Below are positions 38,271-40,526 of a stretch of 64,000 nt of DNA, one piece after another. Made by a program: the position numbers and the translations under genes. How positions within the stretch are numbered: the first letter of the stretch is position 1; the number at the start of each line of letters is the position of its first letter. Source of the stretch: Archangium violaceum (GTDB lineage: Bacteria > Myxococcota > Myxococcia > Myxococcales > Myxococcaceae); assembly GCF_016887565.1 (NCBI RefSeq), contig NZ_CP069396.1, positions 5,376,001 through 5,440,000 of the forward strand. The letters are read 5' to 3'. Below the pieces are notes generated by a model. It worked only from the letters and a program-made list of their open reading frames with translations, had not been told where the DNA came from and made no database searches.

Positions 38271-38489
38271 TCAGGACTGCGAATCTCCCGAACCGTCTGG
38301 CCGCGACGGCGTCGGCCCGAACACGTCATTGGGCGACGGCATCTTGCGCAGCTCGGCTCGGGCCACCTTCCATGCCTGCTGGACGATCCACGAGAGCGAG
38401 CGATCCTGCCGCGTCGCCTCGCGCTGGATTTCGTCCAGCATGTCCTCGGGGAAATAGAGGCTCTGCTTTCGATGATCGGTTGCGGCCAT
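38271..38489 (-). CDS. small ribbon-helix-helix-like KRKQSLYFPE-family protein, copy 2
   Basis: A 72-residue protein from ATG 38489 (MAATDHRKQSLYFPEDMLDE). The core (RKQSLYFPE-(D/E)-ML-x-EIQ-x-EA-x-RQDRSLSW-(I/V)-VQQAWK) is nearly identical to that of the gene at 38495. It resembles the short myxobacterial family I know as TIGR04563; strand-helix-helix spacing suggests DNA binding. The tail (KMPSPNDVFGPTPSRPDGSG) differs from copy 1. The 5-bp gap to copy 1 indicates one operon. Confidence 0.8.
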   Translation of the reverse strand: MAATDHRKQSLYFPEDMLDEIQREATRQDRSLSWIVQQAWKVARAELRKMPSPNDVFGPTPSRPDGSGDSQS

Positions 38490-38494
38490 GAGGG

Positions 38495-38707
38495 CTAGGA
38501 CCTTCCTTCCTCGCGAGGGTCCTGCCGCTCGTCGCCCGTGACGTCGTTCACGGCGGGGAACGACTTGATACGATCGCGAGCGATCTTCCAGGCCTGCTGC
38601 ACGACCCACGAGAGCGAGCGGTCCTGGCGATTGGCCTCCTCCTGGATCTCCTTGAGCATCTCCTCGGGGAAGTACAGGGACTGCTTGCGCTTGTCGGTGC
38701 CTGCCAT
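38495..38707 (-). CDS. small ribbon-helix-helix-like KRKQSLYFPE-family protein, copy 1
   Basis: A 70-residue protein from ATG 38707 (MAGTDKRKQSLYFPEEMLKE); GGAG and AGG lie upstream. The first strand (KQSLYF) and two helices (PEEMLKEIQEEANRQ, SLSWVVQQAWKIARDRI) fit a ribbon-helix-helix dimer. It ends with SFPAVNDV and an acidic/basic tail. It is the upstream member of a tandem duplicate pair, preceded by a strong terminator and a minus-strand promoter at 38839-39100 that may control it. Confidence 0.82.
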   Translation of the reverse strand: MAGTDKRKQSLYFPEEMLKEIQEEANRQDRSLSWVVQQAWKIARDRIKSFPAVNDVTGDERQDPREEGRS

Positions 38708-38838: not shown

Positions 38839-38896
38839 AAAAAAACCCGCAAAAGGGAACGCCCCGGGTCCTCATGGCGAGAACCCGGGGCGTTCC
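38839..38896 (-). terminator. strong intrinsic terminator, minus strand
   Basis: GGAACGCCCCGGGT (38856-38869) and ACCCGGGGCGTTCC (38883-38896) form a perfect 14-bp stem with a 13-base loop. In minus orientation it is followed by TTTT (38854-38851) and a T7 run (38845-38839). No minus-strand protein gene lies upstream of it before tilS, which reads the other way. Confidence 0.8.
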
Positions 38897-39065
38897 GGAA
38901 AGAAGGACCGCCAGGACTGATCCCGGCGGCCCCGTGGGCCCAGAGGGGGAGGGGGGGGACCCCTAGGCCCAACTCCGTCAAAAATCCATGTTCAGAACAT
39001 CTTTCGTCGCGCGACCATTTCCCCCCACCCTCTTTTCCCCGACCCTCCCGTCCCTCGCGACCTGC
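38839..39065 (-). ncRNA. putative small RNA or attenuating leader
   Basis: A minus-strand promoter at 39072-39100 would start a transcript near 39065 that reaches the perfect terminator about 225 bases later. The interval holds no sizeable gene. It contains an 8-codon mini-ORF (MVARRKMF, ATG at 39018, stop at 38992) behind GGGTGGGGGG. It also contains G/C-rich segments (GGGCCTAGGGGTCCCC and CTGGGCCCACGGGGCC) able to form alternative stems. If the terminator is read through, the transcript would enter the tandem KRKQSLYFPE genes. Whether it is a free RNA or a regulated leader cannot be decided by eye. Confidence 0.45.
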
Positions 39066-39100
39066 GTGACGATCATAAGAATCGTCTTGCGCCCCTTCAA
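39016..39100 (-). promoter_or_regulatory. minus-strand sigma-70-type promoter and mini-ORF
   Basis: TTGAAG (complement of 39095-39100), a 17-base spacer and TATGAT (complement of 39072-39077) make one of the best promoters in the window. The -10 box is embedded in an inverted repeat, GACGAT-N7-ATCGTC (39068-39086), a possible repressor site. The start of the mini-ORF follows about 47 bases after the expected transcription start. Confidence 0.6.
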
Positions 39101-39155: not shown

Positions 39156-40526
39156 ATGGCCTCCACTGGTGAAACGAGCGTCCTTTTTTCGACGGCCCTG
39201 GAGCGGGCCTACCGGCAGTTGGGGCTGGCGGGGGGCTCGGTGCTGCTGGCCGTCTCGGGGGGAGCGGACTCGTCCGCGCTGCTCGTGGGCACCGCGCGGG
39301 TGCGCGAGTCCCTCTCCTTGAGGGTGGAGGTGGCCACGCTCGACCACGGCCTGCGGCCCGAGGCCCGGGAGGAGGTGGAGGCGGTCGCCCGGCTGTCCGC
39401 CCGCTGGGGGCTGCCCTGTCATGTTCGCCAGCTGCACCTGTCACCGGGTTCCGGGGTGGAGGCGCGGGCGCGCGAGGCCCGCTACCGGGCCCTGGAGACG
39501 CTGCGGCGGGAGCTGGGACTCCGAGTGGTAGCCACCGCGCACACGGCGTCGGACCAGGCGGAGACGCTCCTCATGAGGTTGGTGCGGGGCACGGCCCTCC
39601 GGGGCGCCGTGGGCATCCACCGGGCACGTCCCTTCCTCGTCCGCCCGCTCATCGAGCGCACGCGGGAGGAGGTGGAGGCCTTCCTGGCCGAGGAGGGTGT
39701 CTCCTTCGTCGCGGACCCCATGAACGTGGACCCCGCCTTCCTGCGCACCCGCATCCGCTATGAGGTGCTGCCGGTGCTGGCGCGCGCCGCGGGTTTTCCC
39801 GTGGCGCCGCACCTGGCCACCTTCGCCCGCCTGGCCGCCGAGGACGAGGCCCTGCTGGGCGAGCTGGCGGACGGGGCATGGACGCGGCTCACCCTCCCGG
39901 ATGGAAGCCTGGATGCGGTGGGCGTGCGCGCCCTGGAGCCGCCGCTGCGCCGCCGGGTGCTGGCCCGCCTGCTGGCCGAAGCGGGCGCCGAGGTGAACGA
40001 TGCGTCCCTCTCCCGGGCACTGGACGCGGTGGAGACGGGCCGGCCCGTGACGCTGGGCGGAGGCCATGAGCCCGGGGCACTCCAGCTCCACACGGCGGGA
40101 GGGCGTGTGCGCTGCGTGCGCCGTGGGGGTTCCACTCCACCGCCTCCGGCGCTCGTGCTGGCGGGGGAGGGGGCGTCGGGCGTCCAGGAGGGCACGGGGT
40201 GGCGCTTCGCCGTGGCGACGGACGCTCCCCCTCCGGGCACCCTGGGCCTGCCGCTGCCGGAGGAGACGCGCTGGCCCCTCAGCGTGCGGACACGGCGGCC
40301 CGGAGACAGGGTCCGAGGGCCCGCCGGCTCGCGCAAGCTGCAGGATGTGCTGGTGGACCGGCGCATTCCCGGGGAGCGCCGCGACTCGCTTCCCGTGGTG
40401 ACGGACGCCGAGGGGGCCGTGCTCTGGGTCCCAGGGGTCTGGAATTCCACACCCGCGCGGGCTGTAGGCCTCTTTCTGTGGGCCTCGCCTCCGCACCCGG
40501 GCATGCTCGGGACGACTCCGTTATAG
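39156..40526 (+). CDS. tilS: tRNA(Ile)-lysidine synthetase
   Basis: A 456-residue protein. It converts C34 of the tRNA-Ile CAU anticodon to lysidine with ATP and lysine. The PP-loop SGGADSSALL is at about residue 34; then LDHGLRPEAREEVEAVARLS, GSGVEARAREARYRALETLR and TAHTASDQAETLLMRLVRGT, all in family order. The C-terminal substrate-binding part is present (WPLSVRTRRPGDRVRGPAGS, RKLQDVLVDRRIPGERRDSL, VLWVPGVWNS). The start is ATG 39156, though no clear ribosome site precedes it. It leads the conserved tilS-ftsH block; 177 bp separate it from ftsH. Confidence 0.92.
   Translation: MASTGETSVLFSTALERAYRQLGLAGGSVLLAVSGGADSSALLVGTARVRESLSLRVEVATLDHGLRPEAREEVEAVARLSARWGLPCHVRQLHLSPGSGVEARAREARYRALETLRRELGLRVVATAHTASDQAETLLMRLVRGTALRGAVGIHRARPFLVRPLIERTREEVEAFLAEEGVSFVADPMNVDPAFLRTRIRYEVLPVLARAAGFPVAPHLATFARLAAEDEALLGELADGAWTRLTLPDGSLDAVGVRALEPPLRRRVLARLLAEAGAEVNDASLSRALDAVETGRPVTLGGGHEPGALQLHTAGGRVRCVRRGGSTPPPPALVLAGEGASGVQEGTGWRFAVATDAPPPGTLGLPLPEETRWPLSVRTRRPGDRVRGPAGSRKLQDVLVDRRIPGERRDSLPVVTDAEGAVLWVPGVWNSTPARAVGLFLWASPPHPGMLGTTPL

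Follow-up and report, generated by a model that had tools for sequence, protein, structure and literature searches.

Alpha-proteobacterial 'cuckoo' sRNAs carry a loop that resembles the anti-Shine-Dalgarno sequence of 16S rRNA. In the Actinobacteria, according to PMC10470900, the strings of C exposed in open loops of B11/6C base-pair with G tracts of ribosome-binding sites, and changes made in the B11 loop and in its target were matched; the expression 'independent of RNA chaperones' is found there in the title of a cited reference. For sX13 from Xanthomonas, PMC3771888 describes C-rich loops that target G-rich motifs close to start codons and whose action is independent of Hfq. Among the myxobacteria, Pxr is the developmental gatekeeper sRNA of Myxococcus xanthus, an RNA that has been studied in depth and whose direct targets are still unsettled (extracts of PMC11928866). 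The loop of its first hairpin, SL1, is essential for function and its terminal SL3 has a conserved 8-bp segment (extracts of PMC5684412), while its gene lies between nla19/pxrR and a NADH dehydrogenase gene and has a predicted sigma-54 promoter (extracts of PMC5568312).

We describe here a locus of Archangium violaceum, located in a 64,000-nt stretch of DNA (hereafter the window; contig NZ_CP069396.1, positions 5,376,001 to 5,440,000), where an RNA with a C-rich loop, referred to below as the tilS RNA, would be transcribed from the minus strand, divergently from tilS (39156-40526, plus strand; Pfam ATP_bind_3 and TilS_C), its constant neighbor. The original prediction placed here a promoter, an 8-codon ORF and a terminator with no protein gene in the interval, and all of these parts were found. 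The promoter, TTGAAG-17-TATGAT (P1; 39100-39072, minus strand), is the sole sigma-70-like site between 36000 and 42000 (0.2 in shuffles, sd 0.5), and a transcript initiated from it would start near 39065 and be about 220 nt long. The ORF (MVARRKMF, ATG to TGA; 39018-38992, minus strand) is preceded by GGGTGGGGGG and lies about 47 nt past the presumed P1 start. The terminator hairpin, SL3 (38896-38856, with core CGCCCCGG/CCGGGGCG), is followed by T4 (38854-38851) and T7 (38845-38839) runs, the whole extending over 38839-38896 on the minus strand; its predicted stem has 18 pairs (14 Watson-Crick, one G-U and three more; -39.9 kcal/mol, z -7.2), and it went unlisted by a simple terminator scan because the tail rule of that scan needs five T in eight. 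That the interval holds no protein gene agrees with differences in C-run length between relatives, which would shift any reading frame. Two elements had been missed by the prediction, namely a conserved pair of hairpins, SL1 and SL2 (38971-38904), and a second promoter-like element, P2 (39022-38996), close to SL1. SL1 (38935-38971, minus strand) consists of a 12-bp stem, 38971-38960 with 38946-38935, and an open 13-nt loop (38959-38947) reading U-C8-U-C3; SL2 (38904-38933, minus strand; 13 pairs, fold z -4.95) is followed in the window by TCTTT. The 228-nt interval folds better than its shuffles (z -4.0), as does the short form of about 140 nt that promoter spacing suggests would run from P2 to SL3 (38846-38987, minus strand; z -5.2), in which SL1, SL2 and SL3 are all formed.

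It is covariation that supports SL1, since neither SL1 alone (z +0.9) nor SL1 with SL2 (z -1.6; 15 of 200 shuffles equally good) is clearly more stable than its C- and G-rich shuffles. When 50 copies were aligned with MAFFT alone, unfitted to any model, five of the 19 predicted pairs showed changes on both sides, one of them being SL1 pair 8-38, which occurs as G-C, A-U, G-U and U-A. Identical 79-nt segments had been taken out of this set beforehand, and the addition of 20 loci gave a larger one (71 copies from 70 sources; L038, whose locus stops within SL3, was excluded from alignments A1 and A3). With these copies placed on covariance model R1, an alignment (A3) that leans to that model because it was fitted to it, 97.6% of the cells pair and double changes are found at 15 of the 19 pairs; double-change cells number 103, compared to 24.0 (sd 4.1) in shuffles, none of 500 reaching 103, and to 3-43 in slid controls. 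For SL1 itself the figures are nine of 12 pairs and 99.8% of the cells. One SL1 pair is U-G in 45 of the 71 copies and another is G-U in 66; on the opposite strand both would be C-A mismatches, so that the minus strand is the one from which the RNA is read. SL1, and not the terminator, is the least variable part of the element, its loop being nearly invariant and its stem variable. A loop of the form U-C(4-8)-U-C(3-6) is present in 70 of the 71 copies, the C run being C8 in 50, C7 in 13, C6 in five and otherwise in three; an unpaired, conserved C run thus sits within a hairpin supported by covariation, as in C-rich-loop sRNAs. The 3' part of the element is less uniform. SL3 with the CGCCCCGG core closes the RNA in the window's family, where T4 is usual in the alignment and the long second T run is found in the nearest relatives. 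In Anaeromyxobacter and other families a T run, in many copies longer than that of the window, comes directly after SL2, which there resembles a terminator, suggesting that the older form of the RNA may have consisted of SL1 and SL2 only.

At the DNA level, 40 of the 59 genomes searched contain the interval, a count that includes the genome of the window; in distant genomes only some 40 to 75 nt between the mini-ORF and the terminator match, at up to 100% identity. Scanning the contigs for the loop pattern returned at least 47 stretches, a lower bound given that a near-exact loop was demanded, from Myxococcus, Corallococcus, Pyxidicoccus, Archangium, Hyalangium, Citreicoccus and Anaeromyxobacter, as well as from myxobacterial bins, two bins named only Deltaproteobacteria and Proteobacteria, and one Comamonas record. 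The latter, Comamonas sp. KCTC 72670, holds a Myxococcus-like copy (L040, 5692-5772) in a block with FtsH, TilS and RHH (ribbon-helix-helix) genes and is probably misnamed or contaminated. In the covariance search that had been proposed along with the original prediction, 125 of the 147 class genomes gave a match, spanning 38 of 48 genera and including that of the model M. xanthus; among the 116 genomes of high quality the figure is 107, and 22 of the 147 (nine of the 116) had no R1 match. Of the copies recovered, 50 had themselves served to build R1; its E-values are rough owing to a short calibration, and stricter filters applied in the large searches. Each matching class genome has one copy, the sole exception being a genome of another family with two in tandem, about 98 nt apart (L126, 1991-2068 and 2089-2165); additional weak hits, at E 0.04-2 in the window's genome and E 7-9 in M. 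xanthus, look like chance. A search of 195 genomes of the phylum gave 126 matches, all within the class, leaving 48 genomes outside of it (by subtraction) with no R1 match. Comparison between genomes establishes, at the level of sequence, a structured minus-strand RNA conserved across the class together with promoter-like and terminator parts.

Conservation extends to both promoter-like elements, as judged against shuffles that keep base counts and not the relatedness of the sequences. In the 200 nt upstream, the best sigma-70-like site scores at least 9 of 12 in 31 of the 71 copies, compared to 4.1% of base-shuffled sequences, and in 36 copies the best site is one of at least 8 points with a 17-nt spacer, starting at -150 to -80. 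P1 lies about 95 nt upstream of SL1; a good match to it is absent from the Anaeromyxobacter and Corallococcus copies. For P2, whose -35 and -10 boxes in the window would be GGAAAT (39022-39017) and GTT (38998-38996), GGAA occurs at the same position in 58 of the 71 copies, and 51 of these 58 have GTT 22-25 nt downstream, an offset range that was chosen after the offsets had been seen; such GTTs total 61, compared to a mean of 6.5 and a maximum of 16 in shuffles. The pattern is missing in 20 copies, 13 of them without GGAA and seven without GTT at 22-25 nt. Portions of PMC10012870 give the SigH consensus of Corynebacterium glutamicum as GGAAT-N18-19-GTT, with GGAAN accepted and examples such as GGAATG-N17-GTT; both the relatives (GGAA(A)T-N17-19-GTT) and the window (GGAAAT-N18-GTT) agree with it, and P2 is putatively a promoter of the ECF (stress-sigma) type. 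The ribosome site and ATG of the mini-ORF overlap the -35 box of P2. Conservation of the mini-ORF, which the original prediction treated as part of the element, was not borne out: in 42 of the 71 copies the GGA/GGAA motif has no ATG joined to it, the remaining 29 would encode peptides of 3 to 152 amino acids, and a peptide like that of the window is found in a single relative (L005). We consider it a chance ORF. The prediction had also noted an inverted repeat at the -10 box of P1 and suggested that it may regulate initiation. The repeat (GACGAT/ATCGTC) is indeed present, and its use as an operator was rejected: arms of at least 5 occur in seven of 43 relatives (6.4 in flanks shuffled likewise, with base counts kept and relatedness lost, maximum 13) and arms of at least 6 in five (1.9, maximum 6), a single repeat shared by the window with two close relatives making up three of these five, so that there is no clear excess. 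In the predicted fold of the window's long P1 form, a G-rich leader (39040-39021) pairs with the C-loop, and when 38 copies were folded, 24 of the P1 forms and 33 of the P2-like forms retained SL1. These folding models are suggestive, not conclusive, of a long form that would be inhibited by its own leader.

No Rfam family reaches its gathering cut-off in the window, the element scoring 21.3 bits with Pxr and 20.4 bits with 6C (RF01066; cut-off 47), and its assignment to a known family was rejected. The tilS RNA shares open-loop strings of C with 6C/B11, from which it differs in belonging to another phylum and in having one C-rich loop, on SL1 only, where B11 has two; sX13, going by its description in parts of PMC3771888, is set apart by three C-rich loops, two of them with CCCC. 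Among the open-access titles listed, none describes the tilS RNA, which may nonetheless figure without a name in some table of RNA-seq results (PMC9548883, for instance, mentions sRNAs). It would be a highly conserved, apparently undescribed small-RNA gene of the C-rich-loop kind. Its loop is anti-Shine-Dalgarno-like, as is that of the 'cuckoo' sRNAs, which come from another class.

The reading we favor, with a probability of roughly 0.6, is that the interval constitutes a gene in its own right, free-standing and coding for a trans-acting sRNA. Transcription divergent from tilS would start on the minus strand both from P1, of housekeeping type, and from P2, of ECF type, the latter raising the level of the RNA under stress; the product would fold into SL1, with its open C-rich loop, and SL2, and be closed by SL3 in the window's family. 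By analogy, the loop, U-C6-8-U-C3-5, would block the translation of selected mRNAs by pairing, without Hfq, with their G-rich ribosome-binding sites. A CCUCC in the loop resembles the end of 16S rRNA that carries the anti-Shine-Dalgarno sequence. The pairing mechanism is proposed from this loop and from the analogues whose mechanisms were tested, B11 and sX13. In five genomes, GGGGAGGGGG-N3-9-ATG occurs 50 times, compared to 21 in the reversed control; one of the five genomes shows no excess (5 and 5), and the excess may only reflect the G-rich nature of Shine-Dalgarno sites. None of the 30 of these 50 sites that were compared (ORFs of at least 60 amino acids) recurs beside an orthologous gene, the sole partial recurrence involving two response-regulator-like proteins that are 36% alike over 89 amino acids.

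A near-invariant loop on a variable stem would also fit recognition by a protein, and a doubtful alternative has the RNA act in this manner, its open C-rich loop titrating a C-binding RNA-binding protein; that myxobacteria have no hfq homologue (extracts of PMC5684412) is compatible with this idea as well as with Hfq-independent pairing. Against titration speak the variable length of the C run among copies and the fact that the analogues with C-rich loops, B11 and sX13, act by pairing in the accounts given in parts of PMC10470900 and PMC3771888. The original prediction had left the choice between a small RNA and an attenuator of the two genes downstream, RHH-like gene 1 (38498-38707, minus strand; RHH_5 and RHH_1 matches, both below cut-off) and RHH-like gene 2 (38271-38489, minus strand; RHH_5 match below cut-off). 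This gene pair contains a 131-nt repeat of 77% identity, and the protein of gene 1, unusually conserved for its size, is 100% identical in a different genus, where two genomes (L009, L010) encode it. As an attenuator or leader, the element would stop most P1 transcripts at SL3, a stable hairpin followed by T, and read-through would express the RHH pair, and 48 of the 71 copies do have the start of an RHH gene no more than 600 nt downstream. However, SL1 and not the terminator varies least, and the remaining 23 copies keep the element with no RHH gene start within 600 nt, at least 1.4 kb of downstream DNA having been examined in each; the RHH gene is farther off in three of the 23 (663 to 2014 nt), and three others, for which longer loci were examined, have one at about 2.2 to 2.5 kb. 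In contrast to this loose association, 70 of the 71 copies have tilS as their divergent neighbor, the exception (L054) having only 413 nt of flank. The 23 copies argue for a free-standing small-RNA gene, so that of the two options the attenuator was rejected and is, in our opinion, very improbable, whereas the small RNA is upheld by covariation, class-wide presence and the retention of promoter-like and terminator parts.

A free-standing sRNA gene could have shared its ancestry with Pxr, one of the two having moved. The layouts are alike: both RNAs are myxobacterial, carry a C run in the loop of SL1 and end in an SL3, and the Pxr loop of M. xanthus, UUCCCCCCCACCCC, reads UU-C7-A-C4 where that of the window reads U-C8-U-C3. 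The M. xanthus pxr gene was located via the primer printed in PMC11928866; the Rfam Pxr model (RF01812) matches the same site (G137:C53:10455-10562), and the flanking ORFs, judged by eye, fit the nla19/pxrR and NADH dehydrogenase arrangement. The tilS RNA lies elsewhere in that genome. In the window's genome, four tandem Pxr copies score over the cut-off at G000:C1:10863439-10864470, 5.4 Mb from the window element; the five other genomes searched of this genus have two to five Pxr matches each. That the window element is Pxr itself was rejected on the grounds of score, locus and promoter: its 21.3 bits, weakly in favor of common descent, compare to a cut-off of 80 and come from SL2-SL3 and not from SL1; its neighbors are tilS and usually RHH genes, unlike those of Pxr; and, where Pxr has its predicted sigma-54 promoter, allowing up to two mismatches to TGGCAC-N5-TTGCW revealed no sigma-54-like site between 38800 and 39160, the pattern occurring at chance level across the whole window. 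The same points stand against descent from a common RNA, as does the search of the M. xanthus genome with R1, which at E up to 10 did not report Pxr. Pxr matches, found in 93 of the 147 class genomes (61 over the cut-off), are all confined to the window's family, and the tilS RNA, which extends to families with no Pxr match, is the more widespread and would be the older of the two. We regard the tilS RNA as unlikely to be a diverged relative of Pxr.

A free-standing tilS RNA that pairs with mRNAs could have a broader role, which we put forward tentatively and as speculation more than expectation: that of an anti-Shine-Dalgarno mimic under stress-sigma control, belonging to the core genome of the class, older and wider than Pxr and competing with it, or backing it up, at shared G-rich ribosome-binding sites. 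If true, the tilS RNA would be the only RNA of its type seen in the families with no Pxr match. The genome of M. xanthus has in it a second C-loop RNA, of wider distribution than Pxr and with a nearly invariant loop, which offers a direct handle on what C-loops do in bacteria that lack Hfq and might bear on how the work on Pxr itself is interpreted; its gene is small, present in single copy and testable in a laboratory strain, the copy of laboratory M. xanthus being at L037 2429-2509. Should the proposed role hold, this mimic would link the stress response, growth and fruiting-body development in these bacteria.
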